Origin: a virus
Length of the DNA stretch: 21,878 bases
Reading direction: 5' to 3' (one strand)
Virus record (IMG/VR): IMGVR_UViG_3300005536_000018
Coordinates: 1 to 21,878 of that record
Below, in pieces: positions 4,053 through 20,357 of the stretch (position 1 is the first letter of the stretch; each line of letters opens with the position of its first letter). The translations under genes were made by a program, and so were the position numbers. The notes under the pieces are model-generated. The model saw only the letters and a program-made list of their open reading frames with translations, did not search any database and was not told where the DNA came from.

Positions 4053-4922
4053 ATGAGTGGCCGCTACGTGTCGTGTGTCCTTGAATCAGGGCTGCCGCCG
4101 GATCTGAAGTTCACAGCAGTGGTGTTCGCGTCGTTTGCCGATGAGGACGGCTATCGGATCTGGCCGTCGATGGGCGAGGTCGCGCACCTCCGGGGCATCA
4201 CCGAACGCGCGGTCCAGTATCACGCGAAGGAGCTTCGTGCCATGGAGATTCTCGAGCTCGTCAAACCCGCGACGCAGTGGTTTTCCGCGCAGTATCGGAT
4301 GCGGCTCGACAAGCTGCCGCAGCGCCCCGCGTACGATCCACCCGAGCGGCAGCGGTATCTGCTCGGCCCACCAGGCGAAAGTCCGGGTGAGAAATATTCA
4401 GGGGTGAAGTCCCCTTCACCCCCGCCAGGGGTGAAGTACAGCGCGCCAGGGGTGAAGCCCACTTCACCCGATCCGTCACTAGATCCATCACGTACACACA
4501 CTAATGCGCGCGCGCGCGAGGCGAGCGCGGATTCAGAGGTGAAGCCGGCTGCACCCCTTACAGGCGAAAGTCCGCTCGTGACGTTGCCGCTGATCGTGGC
4601 GCCCGCGCGCGATCCCGATCACGACGCGCACGCGTGGTGCGGTCGGCTCTGCGTCCCGAAGTTTCTCCACAAGCAATTCAAGCACGCGCTCGGTGGACCG
4701 GTCACGAAAAAGCCGGAGCGGCTGCGCGCGTTCTATGCGGACACGATCGCCGCGATTCCCGGCACGGCCGATATCGGTGACCGACCGGTCGACTTCTGGC
4801 GCGCCGCATTTGCGAGCCGCTTCATGCGGACGGTGCCGAAGGCCGCAACCAACCCGCGCGAGATTCCCGTCGACCTCTATGCGTTGGCTGAGGAACAACG
4901 TCGGCGCCGAGGGGGACGATGA
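4053..4922 (+). CDS. replication initiator, winged-helix (lambda O-like role)
   Basis: A 289-residue protein in three parts. Residues about 14-90 form a winged HTH of the HTH_36 type, with IWPSMGEVAHLRGITERAVQYHAKELRAM as turn and recognition helices and FSAQYRMRL as the wing. Residues about 100-190 are a proline/serine/glycine-rich disordered linker. Residues about 195-289 form a helical C-terminal domain (HAWCGRLCVPKFLHKQF..., VDFWRAAFASRFM) ending in an arginine run. Phage initiators of this build bind repeats in their own gene and recruit the helicase loader. Both features are present: palindromic repeats in the linker DNA (4401-4469) and a DnaC-type gene overlapping the stop (ATGA). No Shine-Dalgarno is visible before the ATG, so translation may depend on the short upstream frame. 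The initiator role is inferred from context. Confidence 0.75.
   Translation: MSGRYVSCVLESGLPPDLKFTAVVFASFADEDGYRIWPSMGEVAHLRGITERAVQYHAKELRAMEILELVKPATQWFSAQYRMRLDKLPQRPAYDPPERQRYLLGPPGESPGEKYSGVKSPSPPPGVKYSAPGVKPTSPDPSLDPSRTHTNARAREASADSEVKPAAPLTGESPLVTLPLIVAPARDPDHDAHAWCGRLCVPKFLHKQFKHALGGPVTKKPERLRAFYADTIAAIPGTADIGDRPVDFWRAAFASRFMRTVPKAATNPREIPVDLYALAEEQRRRRGGR
4372..4574. other. candidate replication origin inside the initiator gene
   Basis: GGGGTGAAG occurs at 4401-4409, 4428-4436 and 4449-4457. Its reverse complement CTTCACCCC occurs at 4414-4422, and CTTCACCC at 4462-4469. Two are arranged as palindromes around 3-4 bases. A further AGGTGAAG lies near 4537. An AT-rich patch (GAGAAATATTCA) touches the left side at 4389-4400. 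The whole array is bracketed by the 14-base direct repeat CAGGCGAAAGTCCG at 4372-4385 and 4561-4574. In lambda and P22 the origin iterons also lie within the linker-coding part of the initiator gene. Confidence 0.6.
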
Positions 4923-5782
4923 CAGCGGAGCCGATCTGCCCGCACTGTGACGGCACCGGCTGGACGACGCGCTACGTGCCATACCTCGAGCCGCGCGTGA
5001 ACCGCTGCGCGTGCTGGCACGCGCACCAGCAGCAGGACCGGATCGCCGGTGCCGGCATTCCGCCGGAGTATCGCGGCTGCAGGCTGGACACCTATCGTGC
5101 CTACACGCCCGCGCTGACCGAGGCGCTCGACCTCGCGCGGGCCTATGCGGCGCGCTTTCCCGTGATGCTCGAGAAGAGCGATCCCACCGGCCTGCTCCTG
5201 ATCGGTCCGGCCGGCGTGGGGAAGACCCATCTCGCCGCGGCGATGCTGCACGCGATCATCGCGCGGACCGGGATTCACGGACGCTTCTGCAAGATGGGCG
5301 AGCTCCTCCGGCAGATGCGTGACAGCTACAACCCGACCATTCAAACCACCGAGCGGCAAATCCTCGAGCCGGTCCTGACGTGTGATCTCCTCGTGCTCGA
5401 TGACCTCGGCCGGGAGCGGCTCACCGAGTGGGTGGCCGATACGATGGACCTCATCATCGACACGCGCTATTCCGCGGGCAAACCGATCCTCGTGACGACG
5501 AACTATCCCGACCTCGACGACTCGACCGAGGTCAACGGCTTGTGGTGGCGCGTCGGCTTCCGGACCCGGTCCCGGCTGCACAAGATGTGTCGGGCCGTGA
5601 CGCTGGACGGGGCCGACTATCGTGACGTCTCGCCCGAGGCGAGCGACAAAGATCTGCGGCGACTCGCGCGTCAGCGTGGCGTCGTCGCGCCGACGCGTCC
5701 ATTACGACCCGGCCCGCGGCCGGCGCCAAAGGACGGCCAGGACGATCTGAACTGGCCCGGCGGGAAAGGCGGGAACAGCTGA
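4919..5782 (+). CDS. DnaC-type AAA+ helicase loader
   Basis: A 287-residue ATPase with an N-terminal zinc ribbon (Cys7-x2-Cys10 and Cys30-x-Cys32) and a DnaC/IstB-type AAA+ domain. Walker A is GPAGVGKT (96-103), Walker B is LLVLDDLG (157-164), and sensor 1 is in TTNYPDL (193-199). An arginine-rich segment near 235-245 (RTRSRLHKMCR) is positioned as the arginine finger and sensor 2 area. Such proteins load the replicative DnaB helicase at an origin marked by an initiator. The tail after about residue 255 is proline/basic and disordered. It overlaps the initiator stop (ATGA) and the next gene (TGATG), forming the core replication operon. No phage DnaB was seen in the window, so the host helicase is the probable client. 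Confidence 0.9.
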   Translation: MTAEPICPHCDGTGWTTRYVPYLEPRVNRCACWHAHQQQDRIAGAGIPPEYRGCRLDTYRAYTPALTEALDLARAYAARFPVMLEKSDPTGLLLIGPAGVGKTHLAAAMLHAIIARTGIHGRFCKMGELLRQMRDSYNPTIQTTERQILEPVLTCDLLVLDDLGRERLTEWVADTMDLIIDTRYSAGKPILVTTNYPDLDDSTEVNGLWWRVGFRTRSRLHKMCRAVTLDGADYRDVSPEASDKDLRRLARQRGVVAPTRPLRPGPRPAPKDGQDDLNWPGGKGGNS

Positions 5783-15294: not shown

Positions 15295-15723
15295 TTGAAA
15301 TCGAAATCAAGTTCGCACGGCGGCAGGCGCCCCGGCGCGGGCAAGCCGAAAGGCACCGTCCAGCAGGACACCCTCGACAAGATCGCGGCGCGCGAGTTCG
15401 TGCGGCAGCGCGTCACGGCCGCGCTCGGCCCGTTGCTCGATGCCCACCTGGCCAACGCGCTCGGCATCAAGTATCTGGTGACCCGGCACAAACGCACCGG
15501 CAAGTTCATGCGGGTGACCGAAGCGATGGCCCGGCTCGAGCGCGGGAAAGAGGAAGAGCTGATCGAAGTCTGGGAGAAGGATCCCTCCGTTCACGCGTTC
15601 ACGTATCTCCTCGATCGGGCGCTCGATCGGCCGAAGGAACAGGAACTCGAAGTGAAGCTGACCAACAGCGACGCGCTGCTCGCGCGGCTCGACGCCGGAC
15701 GCGCCCGCAATGCCAAGCGCTGA
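15295..15723 (+). CDS. terS: terminase small subunit candidate
   Basis: 142 residues, next to the large terminase and overlapping it by 14 bases. The N-terminal GGRRPGAGKPKG (9-20) is the basic Gly-Arg-Pro motif seen at the start of many TerS proteins. Helical segments then follow (TLDKIAAREFVRQRVTAALG; REFVRQ as a candidate DNA-binding helix), and a coiled end (EEELIEVWEKDPSVHAFTYL). TerS recognises the packaging site and regulates TerL. The start is unusual: TTG 15295. An ATG at 15287 reads ATGAAATCTTGA and stops at once. The DNA ATGAAATC-TTGAAATC-GAAATC looks like a tandem duplication that moved the original ATG out of frame, so TTG is taken. Identification rests on context and motif. Confidence 0.7.
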   Translation: MKSKSSSHGGRRPGAGKPKGTVQQDTLDKIAAREFVRQRVTAALGPLLDAHLANALGIKYLVTRHKRTGKFMRVTEAMARLERGKEEELIEVWEKDPSVHAFTYLLDRALDRPKEQELEVKLTNSDALLARLDAGRARNAKR

Positions 15724-17188
15724 GCGCGACCTCGAGACGGAGCTGCACGACGCCGTCGCCGACTGCTACGCCGATCCGCTCGCGTTCGTCCTGACGATGT
15801 ATCCGTGGCCGATCAAAGGGGAAGACGGCCCCGACGCGTGGCAGCGCGAGTTGCTCGAGGAGATCGGCGCGCAGGTCCGCGCGCACAAGTTCAACGGCCG
15901 CGATCCCGTGCTCCCGATCCGCATCGCGGTGGCCTCCGGGCACGGCATCGGCAAGTCGACCCTCATCGCCTGGCTGACCGACTGGATCATGTCGACGCGG
16001 CGCGACTGTCACGGCACGCTCACGGCGAATACCAACGACCAGCTCGAGAAGCGCACCTGGGCGGCGGTCCGCGAATGGACCAAGCTCTGTCTCACCGCGC
16101 ACTGGTTCGAGATCAACTCCGAGATCATGTACCGCAAGGATCACCGCGAGACGTGGTTCTGCGCGCCGGCCTCCTGCGCCGACACCAACAGCGAAGCGTT
16201 CGCCGGCCAGCAGGCGAAGGGCTCGACCAGCTTCTACATCAACGACGAAGACTCGGCCGTCGGCGACAAGATCCACGAGGTCGAAGAAGGCGGACTTGTC
16301 GTCGGCGAGCCGATGCAGTTTCTCTTCGGCAACCCGACGCGCAATACCGGCGCCTTCCACCGCGCGACATTCGGCGCCGGCCGCGACCGCTACACCGTGC
16401 GGACGATCGACTCGCGCACCTGCAAGTTCCGCAATCAGGCCCTGATCGCCGAGTGGCTCGCGGACTACGGCGAAGACTCCGATTTTTTCCGCGTCCGCGT
16501 CCGCGGCCTCCCGCCCAACGCCGACGAACTGCAATACATCGACGCCGGCCGCATCGCGCAAGCCCAGCACAACGTCGTCCAGCCGGTCCACGGCGAGCCG
16601 CTCATCGCGGGCGTCGACGTCTCCGGCGGCGGGAAAGCGTGGACCGTCTGCCGCTTCCGCCGCGGCTTCGACGCGCGCTCGATTCCGCCGATCCGCCTGA
16701 CTGGGGAACAGACCGTCGCGCATGACCGCCAGCTCGTCGTTGCGAAGCTCGCGGAGGCGCTCAGTCAGACGGCGCCCGACCGCAAGATCGCGGCGATGTT
16801 CATCGACTCGGCGTTCGGCGCGGTCATCGTCAGCCGGCTCCGGTCGATGGGGTACGAGCAGGTGCACGAGGTCAACTTCGGCGGCCCGGCGCTCGACGTG
16901 CACGACGCGAATGCCCGGGCCTTCATGTGGCGGAAACTGAAGGAGTGGCTGCCGACGGGCGCGATCGACCCGCACGACGTCCGCCTGGCGACCGACCTGG
17001 GCGCCCCGGGCTTCCACCTGAACAAAAAGAATCAGCTCGTCCTCGAGTCGAAGGAGTCGATGCAGAAACGCAACGTCGCCAGCCCGGACGACGGCGATGC
17101 CGAGGCCCTGACGCACGCGATGCCGGTCGCGGTGCCCCAGAAGGCCGCCGCGCCGCGGCCCGCGCCGCCCCGCAGTACCTGGGGCTAG
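15710..17188 (+). CDS. terL: terminase large subunit
   Basis: A 492-residue packaging motor. The N-terminal ATPase has Walker A SGHGIGKST (76-84), Walker B with the acidic pair at 179-180 (FYINDEDSAV) and the coupling motif FGNPTRNTG (207-214). The C-terminal RNase H-like nuclease shows IAGVDVSGGG (Asp303), MFIDSAFG (Asp366) and PDDGDAEAL (Asp461/Asp463) as metal-binding acids. It pumps DNA into the prohead and cuts concatemers. The length is normal for a two-domain TerL, and it ends in an Ala/Pro tail. Its ATG lies 14 bases inside the small subunit gene. The headful or cohesive-end cutting type cannot be decided from this window. Confidence 0.95.
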   Translation: MPSAERDLETELHDAVADCYADPLAFVLTMYPWPIKGEDGPDAWQRELLEEIGAQVRAHKFNGRDPVLPIRIAVASGHGIGKSTLIAWLTDWIMSTRRDCHGTLTANTNDQLEKRTWAAVREWTKLCLTAHWFEINSEIMYRKDHRETWFCAPASCADTNSEAFAGQQAKGSTSFYINDEDSAVGDKIHEVEEGGLVVGEPMQFLFGNPTRNTGAFHRATFGAGRDRYTVRTIDSRTCKFRNQALIAEWLADYGEDSDFFRVRVRGLPPNADELQYIDAGRIAQAQHNVVQPVHGEPLIAGVDVSGGGKAWTVCRFRRGFDARSIPPIRLTGEQTVAHDRQLVVAKLAEALSQTAPDRKIAAMFIDSAFGAVIVSRLRSMGYEQVHEVNFGGPALDVHDANARAFMWRKLKEWLPTGAIDPHDVRLATDLGAPGFHLNKKNQLVLESKESMQKRNVASPDDGDAEALTHAMPVAVPQKAAAPRPAPPRSTWG

Positions 17189-18062: not shown

Positions 18063-20357
18063 ATGGGCTTCCTGGACGCGCTCAATAAACTCACCGGCGG
18101 CGGCCCGGCCGACGACGACACCCCGACGCCGGTGGTGATGTCGGACGACGACGCCGCGCTGCTCGAGGAAATCCTCGCCGACTACAACTACGACGTCGAC
18201 AACTGGGCGCCGATCCGCGCCGAGGCCGATATCGATGTGAGCTACGCGGCCAACGACACCTGGACAAAAGAGGACGAAGCGGCGCGCGCCGGGCGCCCGA
18301 TGCTCAACCTCGATCAGCTCAGTCAGTACCGGAACCAGGTCGAGAACACCGTCCGCCAGAACAAGCGCGGCGTGAAAGTCTCGCAGGCCGGCGGCGGGGC
18401 GACGGAGAAGACCGCGGAGCTGCGGGCCAACCGCATCCGCGAGATCGAATACCAGTCGCACGCGCAGGAAGCCTACTCGCAGGCCTTCAGCGATTGCCTG
18501 ACGCGCGGCTACGGCTTCGCGCGCATCGTCGCCGAGTACGAAGACGAAGAGAGCGACAACCAGGTCTTTCGCACGAAGAGCATTCCTGATCCGAACTCGG
18601 TGATCCCTGACTCCGACGCGCAGTCGACCTCCGGCCGCGACTGGCGCCGCTGCGTGTTCGTCGACACCGTCTCGATCGCGCAATTCAAACGCGACTGGCC
18701 GACGGCGCGGGTCCAGAGCTTCGACGCGGCGAGTGTCGCGCATCTGCCGCGGTGGTTCGGCAAAGAGGGGCGCGTGCAGATCGCCGAGGTCTGGCGGCTC
18801 ACCGAAACGCCCAACCCGCGCGGCCGGGGCAAGCCGACGCGCGAGGTCTGCCAGTACGTCACCAACGGCCTCGAGTTTCTGGTCAAGCCCGGGATGCCGA
18901 AGAAGACCGTCTGGAAGGGCAAGTACATCCCGTTCGGCGCGTGTCTGGGCCGCATCATCTACCGCGGCACGACGACCGGCGACAGCCAGAAGCTGATCCT
19001 CTCCTATATCCGGTTTGCGCGCGACAGCGCGAAGGGCTTCAACTGGACGTGGTCGACGATCCTGGAAAAGATCGCGCTGCCGGTGAAGGCCTCGCTCATG
19101 GGCTTCAAGGGCCAGGTCGACAACGACATTCTCGCGCTCGTGGAACGCTCGACCAAGGAACACGTGCCGTGGATCGGGTTCAACGCCATGACCGATGCGA
19201 CCGGCCAACAGGTGTTGCCGTTGCCGCAGTACGGCTCGCGCGAAGCGGACATCCAGGCGGACATGGCGGCGGCCGAGGGCTTCCAGCGCAACATTCAGAA
19301 CTCGCTCGGCCACTTCAATGCGACCGACGCGCGCATGGGACATACGAAGGTCACCAGCGGCGTCGCGCTCCAGGAGCTGAAGCGCAGCGGGGACCTCGGG
19401 AGCTACGACTACCTCGATCACTACGACGACTTCCAGAAGTTCATGGGCGAGCAGTACGACGATCTGCTCAGCGCCTACGACGACACGGACAAAGAGGTCG
19501 CGCTGCGCCTGCCCGACAACACGACGAAGATGCAGCGCATCAACCATATGACCGGCCGCGCGCCGGACGGGTCGCCCGCGTATGCGCCCGACGATCTGCG
19601 CATGGATCAGGGCCGGCACACCATCACGATTTCCACGGGCCCGAGCTTCGACAGTCAGCGCGAAGCCGGGAAGGAAGCCGCGATGAACCTCCTGCAGAAT
19701 CCGCAGGCGTTCCCGATCATCGCGTCCGACGCGGTGAAACTCATGGACCTGGGCCCCATCGGCGATCAGATGGCCGAAGATCTCGAGTTCCTCCAGCCGC
19801 CCGTGATGCAGCAGGCGCGGCAGCAGAAAGCCGGCGGGGAGGGGGCGCCCGATCCCCGGCAACTGCAGCAGGAGAACAGCCAGATCAAGCAGCAGCTCCA
19901 GCACGCCGAGCAGACGATGCAGCAGATGCAGGGCGAGCTCCAGGGCAAGCAGGCGGAAATCGCGTCGAAGGAAAAGATCGCCGGGCTGCAGATCGCCAGC
20001 GCGGAGCGCATCGCCGACGTCGAGTCGCGGCGGCGCGCGGAGACGGCGATTACCGTCGCCGAGATCAACTCGAAGGCGAAGGACGCAGCGCTGTTCATGG
20101 AAGAGCGCGGGCGCATCGGCGTCCAGATCGCGGACCAGGCGGCCCAGGCCTCCGACCACCTGCACGAACACGTGCAGGCCGACTTGGCACGACAGGCCGC
20201 GGCCGAGCAGGCGCAACAGGCGCAGCAGCATCAGATGGGCATGGCGGCGGCCGGCGCCGGCGCCGCGGCCGACGCGCAACAGGCGGGGCACGAACAGACG
20301 CTCGCCCAAGGGCAGCAGGCCGCGGATCTCGCGCCGCAGCCGACCGGTGAAGAGTAA
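18063..20357 (+). CDS. portal protein, P22-type
   Basis: A 764-residue protein starting directly after the previous TAA. Early segments match the P22 portal pattern: NWAPIRAEADIDVSYAANDT, GRPMLNLDQLSQYRNQVENT, VRQNKRGVKVSQ, and AYSQAFSDCLTRGYGFARI. A stem and wing follow (about 150-450), with YDYLDHYDDFQKFMGEQYDD near the crown-linking region. Residues about 585-745 are very rich in Gln and Ala (QQENSQIKQQLQHAEQTMQQ), consistent with the C-terminal helical barrel. Twelve copies would form the DNA channel at one head vertex, bound by TerL. The chain is slightly longer than the P22 portal (725 residues). The long, repetitive Gln-rich end is a notable feature. Confidence 0.92.
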   Translation: MGFLDALNKLTGGGPADDDTPTPVVMSDDDAALLEEILADYNYDVDNWAPIRAEADIDVSYAANDTWTKEDEAARAGRPMLNLDQLSQYRNQVENTVRQNKRGVKVSQAGGGATEKTAELRANRIREIEYQSHAQEAYSQAFSDCLTRGYGFARIVAEYEDEESDNQVFRTKSIPDPNSVIPDSDAQSTSGRDWRRCVFVDTVSIAQFKRDWPTARVQSFDAASVAHLPRWFGKEGRVQIAEVWRLTETPNPRGRGKPTREVCQYVTNGLEFLVKPGMPKKTVWKGKYIPFGACLGRIIYRGTTTGDSQKLILSYIRFARDSAKGFNWTWSTILEKIALPVKASLMGFKGQVDNDILALVERSTKEHVPWIGFNAMTDATGQQVLPLPQYGSREADIQADMAAAEGFQRNIQNSLGHFNATDARMGHTKVTSGVALQELKRSGDLGSYDYLDHYDDFQKFMGEQYDDLLSAYDDTDKEVALRLPDNTTKMQRINHMTGRAPDGSPAYAPDDLRMDQGRHTITISTGPSFDSQREAGKEAAMNLLQNPQAFPIIASDAVKLMDLGPIGDQMAEDLEFLQPPVMQQARQQKAGGEGAPDPRQLQQENSQIKQQLQHAEQTMQQMQGELQGKQAEIASKEKIAGLQIASAERIADVESRRRAETAITVAEINSKAKDAALFMEERGRIGVQIADQAAQASDHLHEHVQADLARQAAAEQAQQAQQHQMGMAAAGAGAAADAQQAGHEQTLAQGQQAADLAPQPTGEE

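Follow-up and report, generated by a model that had tools for sequence, protein, structure and literature searches.

A probable replication origin within the disordered linker of a winged-helix initiator gene in a tailed phage genome fragment

The replication origins of most phages, and of nearly all uncultured ones, are unmapped. The locus described here raises the question of whether a phage initiator gene carries, in the section that encodes its linker, the origin at which its own product acts. It lies in IMG/VR record IMGVR_UViG_3300005536_000018, of which we analysed 21,878 nucleotides (positions 1 to 21,878; hereafter, the window). The window includes a terminase large subunit-like gene (15710-17188; phrog_2 match) and a gene for a P22-like portal (18063-20357; PF16510, E 9e-83), and we therefore take the record to be a fragment of a tailed phage. 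The features of the locus are the following (window coordinates; strand given where it applies).

4053-4922, forward strand: initiator gene, 289 amino acids, with an N-terminal winged helix, a disordered linker bearing the putative origin and a C-terminal helical domain
4372-4385, forward strand: left outer 14-mer CAGGCGAAAGTCCG, an exact repeat; its core, GGCGAAAG(C/T)C, occurs at the equivalent place in relative L016
4401-4422, unstranded: iteron palindrome 1, GGGGTGAAG-tccc-CTTCACCCC, found as repeats and kept as DNA in L016
4428-4436, forward strand: lone half-site GGGGTGAAG, found as a repeat and identical in L016
4450-4469, unstranded: iteron palindrome 2, GGGTGAAG-ccca-CTTCACCC, abutting the tandem motif; found as repeats and in L016
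4470-4490, forward strand: tandem unwinding-type motif in two copies 12 nt apart, GATCCGTCA (4470-4478) and GATCCATCA (4482-4490)
4470-4505, unstranded: AT-rich patch, candidate unwinding element, 56% AT against 35% for the gene
4491-4518, unstranded: mostly alternating purine-pyrimidine tract (CGTACACACAC ... GCGCGCGCGCGCG), kept in L016
4535-4558, unstranded: iteron palindrome 3, imperfect, AGAGGTGAAGccggCTGCACCCCT, beyond the AT-rich element; found as repeats and in L016
4561-4574, forward strand: right outer 14-mer CAGGCGAAAGTCCG, an exact repeat; its core, GGCGAAAGTC, occurs at the equivalent place in L016, in another frame
4919-5782, forward strand: DnaC/IstB-like helicase loader gene, overlapping the end of the initiator gene (PHROG_50 and Pfam)

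An initial annotation, made from the sequence alone, had read these two genes as a winged-helix initiator followed by a DnaC-type loader, and profile searches agree: the initiator matches PHROG_391 (“replication initiation O-like”, E 2.9e-7), and the loader matches PHROG_50 (“DnaC-like helicase loader”, E 3.5e-53) and Pfam IstB_IS21 (E 1.6e-14). In Pfam, searched up to E 1, the initiator matches HTH_36 only (PF13730; 20.3 bits with a cut-off of 25, E 5e-4, spanning 2-54 of 55), with neither the lambda O N-terminal domain model nor RepA_N (PF06970) found; because HTH_36 is the sole match, we have not filed the protein as a lambda O protein. An AlphaFold2 model shows a confident winged helix over residues 1-90 (mostly pLDDT >90), while most of linker residues 142-189 fall below 50. 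With this model, Foldseek returned no strong match among solved structures; the only replication initiators matched were the RepA/Rep N-terminal domains 4pql, 5kbj and 4pt7 (E 0.02-0.1), which sit among many other winged helices.

Within the linker, GGGGTGAAG occurs three times (4401-4409, 4428-4436 and 4449-4457), facing a perfect inverted copy, CTTCACCCC, at 4414-4422 and a second, CTTCACCC, at 4462-4469, which agrees at 8 of 9 bases. The three direct and two inverted copies of the initial annotation are thus exact except for the last one, and a third, imperfect palindrome (4535-4558) had been overlooked. The record contains 11 copies of the heptamer GGTGAAG, where 1.9 are expected and none of 100 shuffles reached 11; six of the 11 are concentrated in 4403-4544. 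When codons were shuffled synonymously within the gene, by which protein and codon usage are kept constant, neither the six copies of one 7-mer nor the eight perfect inverted repeats of the initiator gene were equalled in any of 3000 shuffles. The AT-rich patch noted beside the repeats is likewise confirmed: 4470-4505 is the most AT-rich 36-nt stretch of the gene and among the top 0.3% of the record. It begins with two tandem GATCC(G/A)TCA units (4470-4490), which had also escaped notice and whose motif is common to most relatives; this tandem and the third palindrome matter more than the features first noted.

The closest relative found (L016) has 63% identity in the winged-helix domain, and its DNA matches the window at nearly every base across both palindromes, the lone half-site, the spacer and the third palindrome, the alignment also covering the CACTAGATCC and ACGTACACACAC / CACGTACACACAC stretches and the CGCGCGCG / CGCGCGCGCGCGAG run. 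In L016, the right half-site of palindrome 3 (CTTCACC) agrees with the consensus at one more base. A protein search of viral contigs with the full window initiator gave no close relatives, tblastn in named phages gave one weak match only, and the diversity of a 14-domain alignment precluded its use as a search query. A search of viral contigs for GGGTGAAGnnnnCTTCACCC gave 24 stretches, about half of them in linkers of winged-helix initiators.

It could be argued that the linker is conserved for its protein, i.e., that GVKxxSP units serve flexibility or partner binding and that the DNA repeats are a by-product; indeed, all three half-sites of the window are read in the same frame, and a disordered state is predicted for the proline-rich linker. 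Elsewhere, however, the same palindrome is read in different frames in unrelated initiators, as GVKxTSP in some and as GEAxFTP or GEVDFTP in others, which argues that it is selected as DNA and not as a protein repeat. Synonymous shuffles, moreover, reproduce neither the palindromes nor the tandem motif, and the latter occurs in all three reading frames (see below). We consider a protein-level origin of the repeats highly improbable.

The outer 14-mers were checked in the window and in L016. CAGGCGAAAGTCCG has no copies in the record other than the two exact ones at 4372-4385 and 4561-4574, and a direct repeat of at least 14 nt arises in 16 of 1000 synonymous shuffles (1.6%), so that the 14-mer alone is weaker evidence than the palindromes. 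In 13.9 kb of L016, GGCGAAAG occurs exactly twice, both times at the positions that match the 14-mers of the window, and the right copy is read in another frame; because of this correspondence, the outer repeats are plausibly a part of the origin. The extra layer that the initial annotation saw in them is possible, since the core also flanks the putative origin of L016, but two genomes are thin evidence for it. A relation of the 14-mer to the iterons as a degenerate copy was rejected by eye, GGCGAAAG and GGGTGAAG differing at 3 of 8 positions. As judged from the genomes compared, the outer GGCGAAAG pair appears peculiar to the lineage of the window, and so does the palindrome beyond the AT-rich element: in the family described next, an exact upstream half-site beyond the tandem motif is rare (2 of 70 genes).

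The recurrence of this arrangement was assessed in 107 distinct initiator genes, reduced to 100 nonredundant ones, which were picked by winged-helix domain patterns alone and hence not by their repeats; a few seed genes recur among the 100, and only the seeds had been chosen for a GGTGAAG array. A linker 7-mer present at least four times on either strand was found in 84 of the 100 genes (2.5 in shuffles), and a perfect inverted repeat in 65 (20 in shuffles). The half-sites are lineage-specific (GGTGAAG, GGTGACA, GGTGCAN, GGTGTCA, GCGGGG and others), many with an outer GGTG.

Directly 3′ of the iterons, the family has a tandem motif, A[AT]CC[AG]TCA, with 148 copies in the 100 genes, where synonymous shuffles give 15.7 (sd 3.6). 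At least one copy is present in 72 genes and at least two in 53, the exact motif being absent from about a quarter of them. It was first noticed in GGTGAAG-bearing loci, and those genes account for about nine of the 148 copies. The motif is strand-specific (only two copies lie on the opposite strand) and is found in all three reading frames (22/95/31). In 57 of 75 cases, the spacing of neighbouring copies is 10-13 nt. The first unit is most often separated from the last CACC by 2 nt (24 of 73 genes), and the family mean of AT content is raised by 0.15 at the tandem units but at no other place within 200 nt. The motif is followed in 20 of 73 genes by an alternating GC run of at least 6, compared with 10.3 in shuffles (largest 16); such a GCGCGC run stands after the tandem units in the window (4506-4518) and in relatives L009, L017 and L063. 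Among named phages, the motif occurs in Bordetella PHB09, Pseudomonas LESphi3 and TC7, and Arthrobacter Elkhorn, and in the form GAACCAGTCA in ST64B, mEp460, AsXd-1 and Vibrio D173. In three autonomous plasmids whose initiators are related, other repeats occupy the corresponding position (TGCCTCAgtcagTGAGGCA in Rhodococcus pRA1, for example), and the exact tandem motif is absent.

The palindromes might instead act in the mRNA, as hairpins controlling translation or transcript ends; by inspection, palindromes 1 and 2 would indeed fold into hairpins of 8-9 bp with 4-nt loops. The window nevertheless has a lone half-site, and in 32 of the 84 family genes with a repeated 7-mer, the commonest one is present in a single orientation only and so implies no hairpin. 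An RNA element would also leave unexplained the covariation of the repeats with a DNA-recognition helix, and we regard it as barely credible.

This covariation, which bears on the reading as an origin, concerns the residue that follows a conserved Gln in the recognition helix: it is Arg in 16 of 16 genes with GGTGACA half-sites, whereas only 3 of 40 genes of other classes have Arg there (Fisher 2e-11), and it is Lys in both genes with GGTGAAC/T. In the CCGGGG genes, Arg replaces the conserved Gln itself in five of six. In a tree built without the helix, the GGTGACA class falls in several places, and related genes switch site and helix together (L200 as compared to L201/L211; L150 as compared to L160). 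Well-supported branches hold three independent contrasts only, of which two agree and none oppose, and for that reason the support from covariation is good but not independent of descent. Among the lines of evidence, covariation makes the strongest case for the domain as the probable binder of the linker repeats.

Binding alone would also be expected if the repeats were operators by which the winged helix limits transcription of its own gene, with the origin elsewhere; covariation points only to probable binding of the domain to the repeats, and autoregulation is frequent in plasmid initiators. Such operators would, however, be placed some 350 bp inside the gene and would abut the AT-rich tandem motif, from which many of them keep a constant spacing. 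Repeats are similarly placed in the plasmids that encode related initiators, and both lambda and pSK41 have their origin at this position (PMC7466680, PMC5703833). Operators are accordingly, in our estimate, an improbable reading.

We therefore favour, with a probability of roughly 0.82, the interpretation that 4372-4574 is a phage replication origin, placed where the phage's own initiator gene encodes a disordered linker, as the initial annotation had proposed; the linker iterons, the AT-rich element, the adjoining loader gene, the DNA conservation in L016 and the covariation of site and helix all speak for it. From the observed layout, its conservation as DNA, its recurrence across the family and the correspondence of half-site and helix, we infer that binding, strand opening, helicase loading and the start of replication would take place here. 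Winged-helix dimers of the initiator would bind the GGGGTGAAG palindromes (predicted dimer target GGGGTGAAGnnnnCTTCACCCC) and bend or wrap the DNA, and the resulting strain may open the adjacent AT-rich GATCC(G/A)TCA units. Either the initiator or the DnaC-like loader could then hold one strand of the opened array of units, and the loader would place the host replicative helicase. GC skew, uninformative in a fragment of 22 kb, has no minimum at 4470 and shows a weak shoulder only.

An origin inside an initiator gene is of a known kind. In lambda, the inverted-repeat iterons within gene O are occupied by dimers of O, the AT-rich DNA next to them melts, and the exposed single strand is kept by O and P while DnaB is loaded (PMC5043065, PMC7466680). 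As in lambda, the Stx phages and P22 gene 18, the repeats of the window lie midway along the initiator gene, each of them an imperfect inverted repeat, with an AT-rich region on one side and a loader (or helicase) gene next; the lambda-type iterons are bound by dimers, which for the window is a prediction. The position that the initial annotation attributed to the lambda and P22 origins is correct (PMC7466680, PMC5043065). Its contrast between palindromes in the window and plain direct repeats in lambda falls, since the annotated lambda iterons are themselves imperfect inverted repeats (annotation; PMC5043065, PMC7466680). The window does differ from lambda in the family of its initiator by profile (HTH_36 / PHROG 391), in its iteron sequence, in its GC-rich genome with GATCC(G/A)TCA units, in the palindrome past the AT-rich element and the outer GGCGAAAG direct repeats, and in a loader of the DnaC type, not the P type. 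By eye, lambda (L128) and P22 (L129) have short tandem ACAAAAGACA-like repeats 3′ of their iterons, which may correspond to the AACCRTCA units.

In the staphylococcal RepA_N plasmid pSK41, the winged-helix N-terminal domain binds repeats in the middle of rep, and the linker DNA is the origin; in staphylococcal pPR9, the RepA_N domain and the origin have been exchanged together for a segment with a phage-like pfam13730 domain, and the rep region replicates autonomously (PMC5703833). The pPR9 hybrid is a precedent for a portable cassette of winged helix and linker DNA, i.e., of initiator and origin. The fold of the window initiator weakly resembles the Rep N-terminal domains (E 0.02 or weaker); unlike the RepA_N proteins, it has no RepA_N sequence match and is encoded in a phage operon with a loader gene, and no DnaG-binding C-terminal domain is assigned to it. 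Like the 13-mers of oriC and RK2, the tandem units are spaced by about one helical turn in an opening region (opening being predicted here) next to sites for the initiator; the RK2 initiator binds the region once it has opened (PMC5043065). Unlike those 13-mers, the unit is A[AT]CC[AG]TCA, not an AT-rich 13-mer, and it lies in the linkers of phage winged-helix initiators.

As far as we have searched, the tandem motif and the correspondence of site and helix are new; in the open literature, with subscription journals largely outside the search, we found no report of the motif in an origin. We give an even chance to the proposal that tandem A[AT]CC[AG]TCA, spaced by about one turn, is an undescribed sequence-specific element for opening or loading, read by a common partner, which we propose because the motif is common to phage origins whose iterons differ. 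Candidates for this partner are the loader, a replication protein of the host and some conserved portion of the initiator itself. What reads the motif in phages whose initiators bind different iterons is thus a concrete question, and the covariation makes the specificity of initiator for origin directly testable. An origin of this type could be located from sequence as a winged-helix initiator linker with lineage-specific half-sites followed by tandem A[AT]CC[AG]TCA units; if this holds, the motif and the residue-to-base correspondence would make the origins of many uncultured phages readable from their genomes.

Some further observations were made alongside. In L139, L141 and P22 gene 18 (L129), the unwinding element is succeeded by a CCCCCCTACCCCCC...GGGG stretch, read as TPLPPKGG-like protein; present in several unrelated initiators, it may be a third DNA-level element. 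In Rhodococcus plasmid pRA1 (L252), TGCCTCAgtcagTGAGGCA palindromes with a spacing of about 23 bp occupy 408-495 in the linker of a winged-helix initiator, and they are probably the origin of this plasmid. A scan of genome contigs for arrays returned mostly unrelated coding genes, and only loci with a winged-helix open reading frame were kept; from a scan with a pattern of palindrome plus motif (L095-L106), most matches were unrelated genes and were discarded. A pattern-based sorting of downstream loaders and C-terminal types proved too crude for use. Six loci on contigs of Actinobacteria or Coriobacteriia (L034, L048, L050, L061, L066 and L073) have GGTGAAG palindromes in initiator-like winged-helix genes and are probably prophages or other mobile elements. 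In three loci labelled Phycisphaerales or planctomycete (L031, L044 and L080), the GGTGAAG palindrome arrays are not in mid-gene; they are located where a winged-helix frame ends or just past that point, or else lie in no long frame.
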